Assembly (NCBI RefSeq): GCF_023634865.1
Contig: NZ_JAMLJN010000011.1
Location: forward strand, 1-64,000
DNA from: Flavobacterium fragile
GTDB taxonomy: Bacteria > Bacteroidota > Bacteroidia > Flavobacteriales > Flavobacteriaceae
Length of the DNA stretch: 64,000 nucleotides
Direction of reading: 5' to 3'
In this document: piece by piece, positions 6,832-32,321 of the stretch
Position numbering within the stretch: the stretch's first letter is position 1
How the letters are laid out: the number at the start of each line of letters is the position of its first letter
Notes under the pieces: model-generated
Told to the model about the DNA's origin: nothing
Database searches by the model: none
What the model saw: only the letters and a program-made list of their open reading frames with translations
Program-made: the position numbers and the translations under genes

Positions 6832-7749
6832 TTATTCTATACTTCCTTTAACATTTATCTCCCTTGAAGGAACTTTTTTTGGAGAAAGACCAGATTTTAA
6901 AATTATTCTTTGCCCGTTTTCTCCTGCAATATAAGATGCAAAACCCATGCCTAAACCATTAGCTCCCTGAAAATTTAACAAATATAACTTTCTAGTCCAA
7001 GGATAAGAATGATCGGCAATATTCGATTGATTAGGAAAAACTACATTTTGATTGCCATTTTGAAGTGAAGATGTAAAACCTATAATTTTAACATTTTGAA
7101 CCTCTCTTTCAATATCAACAGAGGGCTGTAATAACCAATTAACACCTATAACACCAACAGCATCCTTATTATCCGCAATGAACTTGATCAACTCTTTTGA
7201 GTTATTCATAGAATAAACTAAATTGGAATCAAGTTGATCTAAATTAAATTCATTTTTCACAAAGTTAATTATACTAGAATTGGGATTTTCAAAAACAATC
7301 CTTTGATTTAATACACTTGACTTTCCTTTTAACTTTGAAGCTAAATCATCTTTATTTAAAGAAGGTAAATTATTCTCTTTGTTTGTAATGAATACTACAG
7401 CATCTTCTGCAAATTCAGTAATTCTCGGTATAATTTTCTTTTTTGTATAATAATCTAATTCTTCATCATTAAGATTTCTGGGTAAGATTGCAATTTTAGC
7501 TTTATCTTCTTTTAGCAAACTAATTATTTCACCTTCTGGCTTACTAATTAATTTTATACGTGCATTTTTGTATTCGTTTTCAAAAACAGCTACCACATCC
7601 TCAACTATTGGAAAAATAGTCTCATCAACTAAAATTGTAGTAGTTCCAGTAACTACAGTCTCTTTCGAGTCTTTTGTGAGTTTAGCTCCTTTTTCACATG
7701 AAAAGAATACAGATAATAAAATAAGAGCAAATAAAAATTTAGTTTTCAT
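6832..7749 (-). CDS. PstS-like substrate-binding lipoprotein
   Basis: A 305-residue lipoprotein with signal MKTKFLFALILLSVFFSC (lipobox ending at C18) and a periplasmic-binding-protein fold of the PstS/phosphate type. It contains TTILVDETIFPIVEDVVAVF and, near the C-terminus, SYPWTRKLYLLNF and GLGMGFASYI, as in PstS-like proteins. No PstABC genes are in the window. It sits inside an ExbB/ExbD/TonB operon, so it may serve an import or sensing function other than classical ABC phosphate uptake. Ligand identity is inferred only from fold similarity. Confidence 0.82.
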   Translation of the reverse strand: MKTKFLFALILLSVFFSCEKGAKLTKDSKETVVTGTTTILVDETIFPIVEDVVAVFENEYKNARIKLISKPEGEIISLLKEDKAKIAILPRNLNDEELDYYTKKKIIPRITEFAEDAVVFITNKENNLPSLNKDDLASKLKGKSSVLNQRIVFENPNSSIINFVKNEFNLDQLDSNLVYSMNNSKELIKFIADNKDAVGVIGVNWLLQPSVDIEREVQNVKIIGFTSSLQNGNQNVVFPNQSNIADHSYPWTRKLYLLNFQGANGLGMGFASYIAGENGQRIILKSGLSPKKVPSREINVKGSIE

Positions 7750-22409: not shown

Positions 22410-22483
22410 CGGGATGTAGCGCAGCCTGGTAGCGTACTAGCATGGGGTGCTAGGGGTCGCTGGTTCGAATCCAGTCATCCCGA
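22410..22483 (+). tRNA. tRNA-Pro (anticodon GGG)
   Basis: A full cloverleaf: acceptor CGGGATG/CATCCCG, D-arm GCGC/GCGT, anticodon stem CTAGC/GCTAG with loop ATGGGGT giving anticodon GGG, and T-arm with loop TTCGAAT. The discriminator is A and no CCA is encoded. A T-run follows at once. The only tRNA gene I can find here. Confidence 0.97.
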
Positions 22484-22490
22484 CTTTTTT

Positions 22491-23744
22491 CTAAATTTCT
22501 TCAATAGAAAATCCTACTTTTTTTAAATCTTCCCAAAAATCGGGATATGATTTAGATACCACTTCAGCTTCATTAATTTGTATTGGAGCTTTCAAAGCTA
22601 AAGGAGCAAAAGCCATGGCCATTCTGTGGTCTTGGTAAGTGGAGATACTGATATTCTCTTTAATAGTTAGTGAGGATTTCAAATATAACGCATCATTAGT
22701 AACTGAAATTTCAGCTCCAAGCTTAGTAAGTTCTATTTTTAAAGCTTCCAATCGATCGGTTTCTTTGATTTTTAGCGTATGTAATCCCGTTAAATCACAA
22801 GCTATTCCTAATCCAAAGCAAGTAACTGCTATAGTTTGAGCAATATCGGGAGAATCTTTAAGGTTATGGCTAAAAGGCAAAAGGTTATGTTTTTTTTCTT
22901 TTGAAATCGTAATTGAATTATCACTATTAAAAGTAGTTTCAACTCCAAAATCTTGATAAATGTTTACCAAAGCACTATCGCCTTGTAAACTATTTTTTTT
23001 ATAGCTTGAAAGTGTAATTTGTGTTCCAATTGAAGATAAGGCCACAATGGAATACCAATAGGAAGCCGAACTCCAATCGGACTCTACAATTAACTGAGAT
23101 GCTGAAACGAGTTCAGCATGACAAACTGTGATTTTATTTCCAACAAATGAAGTCGTTACTCCTATTTCATTTAATAACGCCAATGTCATTTTGATGTATG
23201 GAACAGATGTGATTTCGCCTTCTAAGATTAATTCCAAACCCTTTTCTAATTTGGGCGCAATTAACAACAAGGCTGAAATATATTGACTGCTTACATTGGC
23301 TGACAGTGATACTTTATTCTGGGTTATTTTTTTCCCTTTGATTCTTATTGGAGGAAAACCTTTCTTTTCTTCATAAGTAATTTCGGCTCCTAACTGATTT
23401 AAAGCGTCAACCAAAATTTGAATCGGACGTTCTTTCATTCGAGAAGAGCCTGTTAAAACTACTTCTCTTCCTTCTTGAATAGAAAAATATGCAGTTAAAA
23501 ACCGCATCGCTGTTCCTGCGTGGTGAACGTCTATGAGTTGGGAGTTGGGAGTTGGGAGTTGGGAGTTTTGCAATGCCTTCAACATCACTTCGGAGTCATC
23601 AGAATTAGAAGTATTTTCCAGCTTCAAATTGGGATACAAAGCTTGCAAAAGCAATAGTCTATTCGTCTCTGATTTGCTTCCTGTGATGGAAAGTTGCGAG
23701 TTACGAATTGCAAGTTGCGAGTTGTATGTTAAAAATAAATCCAT
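22491..23744 (-). CDS. aroA: 3-phosphoshikimate 1-carboxyvinyltransferase (EPSP synthase)
   Basis: A 417-residue enzyme joining PEP to shikimate 3-phosphate. Motifs: ITGSKSETNRLLLLQALYP, HHAGTAMRFLTA, GSSRMKERPI, SDWSSASYW, KETDRLEALK and TYQDHRMAMAFAPLAL. The ATG overlaps the SMR stop (TAATG). The protein is odd in three places, each encoded by repeat DNA: TYNSQLAIRNSQLS near the N-terminus, NSQLPTPNSQLID near residue 65, and CHAELVSASQL before the DWSSASY motif. All keep the frame and miss the core motifs. So the enzyme is probably active but carries repeat-derived loops. Confidence 0.95.
   Translation of the reverse strand: MDLFLTYNSQLAIRNSQLSITGSKSETNRLLLLQALYPNLKLENTSNSDDSEVMLKALQNSQLPTPNSQLIDVHHAGTAMRFLTAYFSIQEGREVVLTGSSRMKERPIQILVDALNQLGAEITYEEKKGFPPIRIKGKKITQNKVSLSANVSSQYISALLLIAPKLEKGLELILEGEITSVPYIKMTLALLNEIGVTTSFVGNKITVCHAELVSASQLIVESDWSSASYWYSIVALSSIGTQITLSSYKKNSLQGDSALVNIYQDFGVETTFNSDNSITISKEKKHNLLPFSHNLKDSPDIAQTIAVTCFGLGIACDLTGLHTLKIKETDRLEALKIELTKLGAEISVTNDALYLKSSLTIKENISISTYQDHRMAMAFAPLALKAPIQINEAEVVSKSYPDFWEDLKKVGFSIEEI
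23095..23123. repeat. Palindromic dispersed element inside aroA
   Basis: The 29-bp stretch has 8-bp arms ATGCTGAA and TTCAGCAT around ACGAG and ends ATGACA. On the coding strand it encodes CHAELVSAS. I recall this text (CATGCTGAAC...TTCAGCATCTCA) as a frequent dispersed element in Bacteroidota genomes. It lies in a variable loop before the DWSSASY motif of AroA. Confidence 0.7.
23534..23568. repeat. 7-bp tract GAGTTGG inside aroA
   Basis: Five heptads: TGAGTTG, GGAGTTG three times, GGAGTTT. Translated from the minus strand this gives NSQLPTPNSQL, a 7-residue period because three heptads make 21 bp. It lies just before the conserved HHAGTAMRF motif. Confidence 0.9.
23691..23725. repeat. 7-bp tract GAGTTGC inside the 5' end of aroA
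   Basis: AAGTTGC, GAGTTAC, GAATTGC, AAGTTGC, GAGTTGT. It encodes NSQLAIRNSQL at residues 8-18 of AroA, directly before the conserved ITGSKSETNR. The unit differs from the second aroA tract by only one or two bases. Confidence 0.85.
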
Positions 23745-29488: not shown

Positions 29489-32161
29489 TTAATCTGCTAA
29501 GTTTGGTGAGAGCCACTTTTCGGCTAATTCTATACTTATATTTCTTCTTTTGGCGTAATCTTCTAATTGGTCTTTTTTAATTTTTCCTAAGCCAAAATAT
29601 TTACTTTCTGGATTCGCAAAATAATAGCCCGAAACCGAAGCTGCTGGCCACATCGCCATGCTTTCGGTTAACTTTACTCCTATTTCTTGTTCTACATTTA
29701 ATAATTTCCAAATTGTTGGCTTTTCTAAATGGTCAGGACAAGCGGGATATCCGGGAGCGGGACGAATTCCTTTGTATTTTTCTTTGATTAATTCTTCATT
29801 TGATAACACCTCATCAGAAGCGTAACCCCAAATTTCTTTTCGAACTTTTAAATGTAGATATTCAGCGAAAGCTTCTGCTAATCTATCGCCTAAAGCTTTA
29901 ACCAAAATCGAATTGTAATCGTCTAATTGCTTTTCAAATTCCGAAGCTTTTTCATCTACCCCAAAACCAGTTGTAACGCAGAAACATCCAATATAATCTT
30001 GTTTTCCAATTTCTTTTGGTACAATAAAATCTGCCAAAGCGATATTTGGTGCTCCAACCGTTTTTTGAGATTGTTGTCTTAAACTCAGGAACTTCTCGAC
30101 TCCGCTCGAAGTGACAAGCTCAATATCATCATCATTTATTGTATTCGCTGGAAAAATTCCTAAAATCCCTTTTGCTGTGAACCATTTTTCTGAAACAATT
30201 TGAGAAAGCATTTTTTGGGCATCTTTATATAAATCAGAAGCTTGTTCGCCTACAATTTCATCGGTTAAAATCGTTGGAAATTTCCCATACAATTCCCATG
30301 ATTGAAAAAAAGGTGTCCAATCGATAAAATCTACTAATTCTGAAAGTGCAACTTCAATAGTTTTAGTTCCAATGAAATTTGGTTTTACAGGTTCGAAAGT
30401 ATTCCAGTCGATTTTGAATTTATTTTTACGAGCTTCTTCAATAGATAGGAAGTTTTTCTCTTTGCTTCTATTCAAATATCCTTCTCTTAACTTATCATAT
30501 TCTTCGCGAAGCGAATGTGCATAAGTTACTTTCGTTTCCGATTGTAATAAATGGGTTGCAACGGTTACTGCACGAGACGCATCGTTCACATGAACCACAG
30601 TTTCCTTATACTCTGGCGCAATTTTCACTGCTGTGTGCGCACGAGAAGTTGTCGCACCACCAATCATTACGGGGATTTTGATATTCAGTTTATCCATTTC
30701 TTTGGCCAAATACACCATTTCATCCAACGATGGCGTTATCAAACCACTCAAACCAATAATATCTACATTTTCTTTAACCGCAGTCTCAATGATTTTTTCT
30801 GGAGGAACCATCACACCTAAATCGATGATTTCGAAATTATTACAAGCTAAAACTACAGAAACAATATTTTTACCAATATCATGTACATCACCTTTTACCG
30901 TTGCCATCAACACTTTTCCTGCTGAAGACGATTTTCCGTCCTTTGAAGCTTCAATATAAGGAAGTAAATAAGCCACTGCTTTTTTCATTACACGAGCTGA
31001 TTTCACAACTTGAGGCAAGAACATTTTTCCACTTCCGAATAAATCACCAACCACATTCATTCCGTTCATCAGGTGATTTTCAATTACTTCTATAGGTTTT
31101 TCAACTAATTGACGTGCTTCTTCCACATCAATTTCGATAAACTCATCAATTCCTTTAACTAACGAATGCGTTAATCGTTCTTGAACTGAACCATTTCGCC
31201 ATTCGGCCACAGCTTTCTCATTCGACTTTGTATCACCTTTGAAACTTTCTGCTAATTCCAACAAGCGTTCGGTAGCATCTTCTCTTCTATTTAGCAAAAC
31301 ATCTTCCACATGTTCCAACAAAACCGGGTCGATTTCATCATAAATCTCTAACATTTCCGGATTTACAATTCCCATTGTCATTCCATTTTGAATGGCATGA
31401 TATAAGAATGCCGAATGCATGGCCTCTCGCACTTTATCGTTGCCACGGAAAGAAAAAGACACGTTACTAACCCCACCAGAAATATTAGCATACGGAAGAT
31501 TTTCACGAATCCATTTGGTAGCTCGGAAGAAATCTAAAGCATTTAGTTTGTGTTCTTCCATTCCGGTTGCGACTGGAAAAATATTAGGATCAAAGATGAT
31601 ATCTTCAGCAGGAAAACCCACTTGGTTCACCAAAATATCATAACTTCTTTTACAGATTTCTATACGTCTTTCATACGTATCTGCCTGACCGTTTTCGTCA
31701 AAAGCCATTACGATTACTGCAGCTCCGTATCGTTTGATTAATTTGGCATGATGGATAAAAGTTGCTTCTCCTTCTTTTAACGAAATCGAGTTCACCACAC
31801 CTTTTCCTTGAATCACTTTTAATCCCGCTTCAATGATTTCCCATTTGGAAGAATCTATCATCACAGGAACTCGGGCTATGTCAGGTTCGGCCGCGATTAG
31901 ATTCAGGAATTTGGTCATCGCATAAACACCATCCAACATACCTTCATCCATGTTGACGTCGATAATTTGTGCACCACCTTCTACTTGAGCACGTGCGATA
32001 TCTAAGGCTTCATCGTATTTTTCTTCCTTAATTAATCGAAGAAATTTTCTAGAACCGGTTACATTTGTTCGTTCTCCAACGTTCACAAAATTGGTTTCTG
32101 GAGTTACAATCAAAGGTTCTAAACCTGATAATTTTAAATATTTATCGGAATTATAACTCAT
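29489..32161 (-). CDS. metH: Methionine synthase, folate/cobalamin/activation part
   Basis: An 890-residue protein equal to the last three modules of MetH. The pterin-binding domain has [17 protein letters not shown] and [16 protein letters not shown]. The B12 cap and Rossmann domain have [16 protein letters not shown], whose His is the cobalt ligand, and [17 protein letters not shown]. The C-terminal SAM-dependent activation domain has [17 protein letters not shown] and [16 protein letters not shown]. It lacks the homocysteine domain, supplied by the gene just upstream. A dispersed palindrome lies in its linker before the activation domain core. Confidence 0.96.
30083..30122. repeat. Palindromic dispersed element inside metH
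   Basis: The core ACTTCTCGACTCCGCTCGAA (30091-30110) is a near palindrome, flanked by CTCAGGA and GTGACAAGC. On the coding strand it encodes [15 protein letters not shown] recall CTTCGACTCCGCTCGAAGTGACA-like text (split here only by memory) as a frequent dispersed repeat of this group. It occupies a length-variable part of MetH between NDDDI and LRQQ. Confidence 0.6.
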
Positions 32162-32321
32162 TACTTATTCTTTTATAGTGTTTTGCAACATCTTTCCAAA
32201 AGGATTTACTGTTGCTCACGTATTGGCAAACTCTACATTGTTGTGACTGTAAAAATGTTTTGAATTGTATTTTTATGGTACTGTTTTTCATTGTTTACAT
32301 ATTTAATAATTGACAAATCAA

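Follow-up and report, generated by a model that had tools for sequence, protein, structure and literature searches.

How does a single-copy gene for a core enzyme come to carry dispersed repeat DNA inside its reading frame, and what happens to such DNA among related species? The question is raised by aroA in the 64,000-nucleotide stretch of the Flavobacterium fragile genome analysed here (the window), in which a sequence-only reading had recognized two tracts of 7-bp repeats and one palindrome. That reading described them as three in-frame insertions that avoid catalytic motifs and are tolerated in loops. A picture of three events in one genome is too small: the repeat content of the sites has changed repeatedly among relatives, and metH has behaved likewise. 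The explanation favoured here, with somewhat better than even confidence, is that four surface loops of AroA are hotspots in the Flavobacterium nearest this genome: 7-bp arrays and short palindromes, the kinds of repeat dispersed in the genome itself, enter them, undergo trimming and take one another's place.

In dozens of Flavobacterium genomes, unrelated repeats have refilled the same loops of a core metabolic enzyme. Standard comparative genomics is therefore enough to trace how protein segments encoded by repeats arrive, are exchanged and are trimmed, and enzyme assays can put this to the test. A further point is that phylogenies and annotation can be misled by loops of this kind and by mosaic genes.

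The aroA gene and its repeat sites

The host of the repeats is an open frame, from ATG to stop, for an EPSP synthase of 417 residues (22491..23744, minus strand). In the 2.69-Mb genome it is the sole match at E <= 0.001. The product lies above the NCBIfam equivalog cut-off of TIGR01356 (301.3 bits vs 287.25) and scores 261.3 bits against Pfam EPSP_synthase. An AlphaFold2 model of AroA based on 46 sequences has a pLDDT of 90.1, and its ten best fold matches are solved EPSP synthases, with TM values (query) of 0.81-0.89. Invariant in 46 AroA sequences are GSKSETNR (residues 22-29), HAGT (75-78), PD (299-300), KETDR (327-331), DHR (372-374) and K398, motif residues that we take to be catalytic. 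Directly beyond the 3' end of aroA, a tRNA-Pro (ggg) lies on the opposite strand at 22410-22484.

Both heptad tracts are 33 bp long and, like the palindrome, belong to the minus strand. Site 1 (23692..23724) is degenerate, with units like AACTCGC or AACTYGC, and encodes NSQLAIRNSQL; TRF reports a period of 7, 4.7 copies and 76% matches. Arrays are called strict here at a score of at least 12 (+1/-2); the site 1 tract of the window scores below this, and its call rests on TRF and on the relatives. Site 2 (23535..23567) is a perfect tract of AACTCCC x 4.7, with a TRF period of 7 and 100% matches, and encodes NSQLPTPNSQL. Site 3 (23097..23123), located by pattern search, is a 27-bp dispersed palindrome, TGTCATGCTGAACTCGTTTCAGCATCT, which encodes CHAELVSASQ and is one of 22 genome matches within 3 mismatches, against none for the reversed control pattern. 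The three repeats of the sequence-only reading are thus present where it placed them, in an open single-copy gene, beside the invariant motifs and outside them. All three sites recur in relatives, but a fourth repeat-prone site had been missed. This site 4 (22857..22898, minus strand; residues ~283-296) is degenerate and heptad-like in the window, with a best period-7 score of 6, and carries clear heptads in relatives.

The period of seven stands out beyond aroA. The window contains 5 strict period-7 arrays; no other period between 4 and 15 has more than one, and three Markov-shuffled windows yielded zero strict arrays at any period. Across 464 kb of the genome, 13 strict period-7 arrays were counted, and at most 5 for any other period. 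A looser heptad pattern returned 17 overlapping rows in the genome, six of them corresponding to the two aroA tracts and 11 lying elsewhere, and only tract 2 gave exact ones. Heptads are not dense in every genome: samples of 100 kb from eight other genomes held 5, 6, 1, 4, 0, 0, 4 and 0 strict period-7 arrays. Two genomes (G032 and G067) have arrays in aroA, yet zero strict arrays in the 100 kb sampled elsewhere in each.

Heptad arrays in the aroA genes of relatives

The comparison covered 80 named loci, the best of 560 confirmed, and 29 from same-genus genomes, a set that leans to near relatives. Genes differing in the last 300 residues were counted as distinct, which left 90 of the 111 rows that the 110 loci and the window provide. 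At least one strict period-7 array is present in 79 of these 90 genes, and seven have one at all four sites. In total, 162 such arrays occur in 115.8 kb of aroA (1.40/kb), compared with 34 in flanking intergenic DNA (0.31/kb) and 9 in flanking open frames (0.024/kb); judged by eye, eight of the last group precede the apparent start codon and one (L049) occupies the first codons. All 162 aroA arrays are confined to the four sites (43, 49, 30 and 40 at sites 1 to 4).

The arrays are built from many units. The relatives' aroA genes contain 65 distinct ones, most commonly AATTCAC, AACCCGC, AAAAGTC and AACCTAC, and 153 of the 162 arrays are A+C-rich on the coding strand. The consensus unit is free of stops on the coding strand in 149 of 162 aroA arrays, versus 15 of 34 intergenic arrays on at least one strand. 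When two sites of one aroA are compared, their units are the same in 13.2% of 121 pairs; with units shuffled among species the figure is 2.5%, and none of 1000 shuffles was as high. Between aroA units and flanking intergenic units the excess is weak (10.6% of 85 pairs vs 4.8% when permuted; 53 of 1000 permutations reach the observed value). Heptads of CTTTTTT-like units were also noticed at eight loci (L025, L038, L043, L051, L057, L066, L071 and L073), approximately 2.6-2.8 kb away from the aroA frame, as measured from its 5' end, and just before a conserved gene, presumably that of kynureninase.

Arrays thin out with distance from this genome. The genus was sampled with 89 of 150 genomes (the 29 nearest and about every second of the rest, including one blank row, L261, and a few genes cut by contig ends). 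Strict arrays are found in aroA of 28 of the 29 nearest members and in 16 of the 60 farther ones, three of which have them right where the open frame begins and where they are probably not coding. Other genera were represented by the 29 best-matching of 116 other-genus or own-family genomes with a match, and two of these 29 family genes (L197 and L208) have strict arrays. The sequence-only reading had proposed that AroA of close relatives be aligned; the repeat segments indeed vary between them. It had also named identical sequence and length across distant Flavobacteriaceae as the mark of ordinary protein loops, and the sequence was found to differ.

Loop position and length

In the AlphaFold2 model, site 1 is located between predicted strands 3-7 and 15-18 and runs into the second, site 3 between predicted strands 204-207 and 217-219, and site 4 between predicted strands 277-282 and 291-294. 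As each falls between consecutive predicted strands, these three sites are taken as hairpins. Site 2 joins predicted helix 49-60 to strand 69-72, and the model is less sure at this position (mean pLDDT 72 for residues 61-70). The earlier suggestion that dispersed repeat DNA lies within the coding frame and in loops is supported.

The loops at sites 1-4 are 18, 17, 16 and 22 residues long in the window. The corresponding medians are 18, 11, 17 and 21 in 29 other-genus genes and 16, 11, 16 and 22 in 22 array-poor same-genus genes, which were hand-picked, are presumably johnsoniae-like, and include three that have an array right at the beginning of the frame. The site 2 loop has 17 residues in the window, versus 11 in 28 of the 29 other-genus genes and in all 22 array-poor genes. 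Because the native loop length is kept, the native sequence at sites 1, 3 and 4 was replaced; only site 2 is truly longer. The description of three insertions consequently fits site 2, but not sites 1 and 3, where the loop is at its native length with the sequence replaced. Constant length at sites 1, 3 and 4 is unlike the prediction of bare insertion.

Several relatives depart from these lengths. L002 is without exactly 21 bp, or three units, at site 2. Loops are lengthened in L033, L040 and L043, with a palindrome inside or beside the heptad, and other extra sequence lengthens loops in L048 and L049. At sites 1, 3 and 4, no array-bearing gene among the relatives was paired with an otherwise identical gene carrying a clean empty site.

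Turnover and mosaic structure

Alignment of near relatives shows that heptads and palindromes exchange at one and the same site. Between L012 and L023, 30 of the 66 nt that encode residues 51-73 differ, and one has a heptad tract there where the other has a palindrome. Outside site 2, differences amount to 5 of 147 nt before this segment and 3 of 771 nt in residues 74-330; a second differing stretch follows in residues 331-346 (11 of 48 nt), and residues 347-417 differ at 12 of 207 nt. The window and its closest relative, L001, are identical at sites 1-3, and in successive segments, with bounds set after looking, they differ at 1 of 222, 58 of 339, 1 of 249, 42 of 159 and 4 of 282 nt. The gene is mosaic, and we read the swaps between near relatives as probable recombination in short tracts.

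The identity of units at the same site was set against the identity of the genes. The share of pairs with the same unit was 67% (6 pairs) at gene identities of at least 95%, 50% (10 pairs) and 48% (27 pairs) in the two bins that follow, 19% (90 pairs) at 80-85%, and 3-7% below that (65-80%). On a queA tree, which was limited to the 59 of 81 rows with a long queA match, the minimum numbers of unit changes at sites 1-4 are 13, 19, 12 and 20; the floors set by the number of units alone are 10, 16, 10 and 18. Units thus rarely recur on this tree, and the closeness of these minimum changes to the floor weighs somewhat against the favoured explanation. The presence and absence of arrays require 15-18 changes on the same tree.

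Palindromes, metH and other genes

Two palindrome families were counted in the genome within 3 mismatches, with 22 copies of the 27-bp core and 13 of the 20-bp core. Fifteen of the 35 copies lie in frame inside open frames, and the other 20 are outside frames or at their edges. All but one of the in-frame copies (14 of 15) fall in frames with a Pfam or NCBIfam match, the exception being the frame of L323. The hosts are aroA, genes for a YggS-like protein, a GNAT protein, an isobutyryl-CoA-type mutase (two copies) and an epimerase-like protein (two), metH, and genes for a restriction methylase, an unnamed protein, a GSCFA protein, hisA, PDH E2 and a radical SAM protein; a Kdo-transferase-like protein, whose family score is below the NCBIfam cut-offs, is also a host. 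When this HisA is aligned with one of solved structure, a gap falls at the peptide that the palindrome encodes; both palindromes of the mutase are located between stretches matched to a solved relative.

Besides aroA, metH (29492..32164, minus strand; an open frame delimited stop to stop) is another gene of the window in which repeats have rewritten a loop, and inside it lies the dispersed palindrome CTTCGAGCGGAGTCGAGAAG (30092..30111, minus strand). Among 20 same-genus metH loops, a strict heptad array is present in five and, by eye, a palindrome or decayed palindrome in five (L305, L307, L308, L310 and L311). Five more (L315-L319) have an LRDENGKVLEK-like sequence, which we take as the native loop, and the remaining five are other or unscored; the loops of L303 and L312 (2 of the 20) were scored by eye. 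The palindrome in metH of L311, GACGTTGCATGCAACGTC, differs from that of this genome.

Further repeats were observed in the same genome. In the mutase gene (L327, L120; G000 C5 ~6940-7020) both palindrome families occur between two domains, and in the epimerase-like gene (L321, L124; G000 C12 ~321800-322085) two different palindromes are in frame. In the radical SAM gene (L332; G000 C27 ~66100-66160) a palindrome adjoins a heptad tract in frame, giving HIERSRDA followed by NSQLLTSNSQ. An in-frame heptad tract, EFRIQNSEFRIQ, is found at L136 18936-18968, in an open frame that we presume from its appearance to be that of a glycosyltransferase. The mutase gene is closely followed by a Y1_Tnp transposase-like gene (L133 1450-2133, minus strand), which scores 26.7 bits against a cut-off of 23, and 21.8 in the genome scan. 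In its protein the peptide TRLIAS/SRLIAS occurs three times over, which may reflect a further dispersed repeat. In REP/RAYT systems the REP transposase gene is flanked by its REPs; in the 3,156-bp locus of the Y1_Tnp frame none of five palindrome patterns was found within 5 mismatches.

A broader proposition would be that, in this part of Flavobacterium, an active DNA-level process overwrites the hairpin loops of core enzymes with any dispersed repeat at constant length. Repeat DNA would then keep supplying AroA, MetH and probably a number of other enzymes with new protein surface. This generalization is speculative, and we consider it rather improbable as a whole.

Possible explanations

In the favoured explanation, that of loops as hotspots, repeats would arrive as in-frame insertions, and selection on the enzyme would then favour deletions that restore the length of the loop but not its native codons. 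Trimming would be easy in tandem arrays, where steps of 21 bp correspond to three units and seven codons. Homologous recombination between strains would subsequently spread the loop alleles. Heptads suit insertion into loops because 7 is not a multiple of 3: since 7 leaves a remainder of 1 on division by 3, an array of at least three units encodes one cyclic heptapeptide in every frame, so that nothing more is required than a unit without stops and an overall length that is a multiple of three. A tetrapeptide that recurs after seven residues (NSQL-AIR-NSQL) may suit a hairpin, one copy for each strand, and selection may decide which repeats survive. Insertion with later trimming is proposed because lengthened loops occur in relatives; the trimming is inferred from these few loops and the one 21-bp difference. 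Weighing against this explanation are the constant length at sites 1, 3 and 4, where no pair with a clean empty site was seen, the weak sharing of units with flanking intergenic DNA, the two species with arrays in aroA but none in the 100 kb sampled elsewhere, and the thinning of the pattern across the genus.

The main rival is overwriting in place, in which the replication strand slips by 7 nt, copies neighbouring bases and realigns, so that neither insertion nor trimming is needed. The nearly constant loop length at sites 1, 3 and 4 is what this process predicts, and period 7 stands out both in aroA and in the window's genome. It also agrees with an earlier survey, as related in PMC4679880, in which most genomes had heptanucleotide repeats as their commonest class, and with the proposal that the polymerase touches a stretch of 7 nt. 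However, overwriting leaves the palindromes at the same sites and the lengthened loops unexplained, and some swaps between near relatives reach into flanking codons, as in recombination. We regard it as unlikely, though a serious competitor.

If, instead, single old insertions had been inherited by descent and had later drifted, the identity of the window and L001 at sites 1-3 would be natural, as would the decayed forms of the palindrome (QHAKFVSAS, GHAKYVGAT). Different species, however, hold near-perfect arrays of different units, and a heptad faces a palindrome in a pair that is 97% identical outside the loops. Common descent of this kind is very improbable.

Ordinary protein loops would account for the repeats if selection on hairpins favoured peptides of the NSQLxxxNSQL type and the DNA periodicity were a by-product. 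Loops occur naturally at sites 1, 3 and 4, with a length that hardly varies, and the sequence found at site 1 in other genera, LQKSKIAKQSSIKI, is similar to some heptad peptides. Against this, the repeat-coded stretches were recoded synonymously, and only 20 of 16,200 trials reach the observed 7-bp score (316 reach the threshold of 12). Because the observed periodicity is so seldom reached in this way, the periodicity of aroA is DNA-level repetition and not protein convergence, and plain convergence is refuted as the source of the DNA period. The palindrome at site 3, moreover, has identical copies at other places in the genome. The probability left to ordinary loops is slight.

Phase variation, in which the gain or loss of units would switch aroA off and on, can be rejected as scarcely credible: one or two 7-bp units gained or lost would shift the frame, and the genome search marked one in-frame TAA within the match in G098 and G078, but the arrays have little length (85 of the 162 measure 31-35 bp), open frames of at least 410 codons are present at all 110 loci and in the window, G098 and G078 included (415 and 436), and palindromes at the same sites are unable to switch in this manner.

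Comparison with known systems

The favoured picture of loop hotspots concerns Flavobacterium, which is free-living and not obligate intracellular. The closest precedent is that of the Rickettsia palindromic elements (RPEs), which lie within the reading frames of protein genes (Ogata et al. 2000, 2002, cited in PMC2229807, PMC3733652 and PMC2996958). As in the accessible accounts of RPEs, dispersed palindromes occur here in frame in conserved proteins, typically in non-structured segments, and also between genes. RPEs are given there as 105-146 bp long (PMC2229807), whereas the matched cores here are 27 and 20 bp, a figure that does not cover longer outer parts, and R. conorii is described as obligate intracellular (PMC3733652). 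In those accounts, as far as they were available, neither tandem heptads nor repeated refilling of one loop by unrelated repeats is mentioned. The sequence-only reading had drawn the Rickettsia analogy for all three repeats; it suits the palindromes, but for in-frame heptads the literature search, in the text it could reach, found no precedent, nor anything on heptad arrays inside aroA or on loop hotspots in Flavobacterium. Selfish repeats that keep the reading frame have been recorded in Rickettsia, in Wolbachia and in one archaeon (PMC2996958).

The GTAG- and CGTC-tagged REPs are palindromes of 20-40 bp with many copies, some of them in coding regions (PMC3733652). The palindromes described here are similarly short, numerous and largely extragenic (22 and 13 copies; 20 of 35 outside frames or at edges). 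They differ in that neither a GTAG nor a CGTC tag was seen, by eye, on either strand of the matched cores or of the sequence close beside them.

For the heptads, the nearest comparison is with the TAACTGA heptanucleotide arrays, reported from Beggiatoaceae, some Cyanobacteria and five Bacteroidetes, and mostly intergenic (PMC4679880). Both systems have a 7-bp tandem unit in several copies, spread over the genome. The arrays in that account, however, consist of one unit and are mostly intergenic, whereas those of Flavobacterium are built from many units and occur in frame, at fixed sites of a core enzyme.
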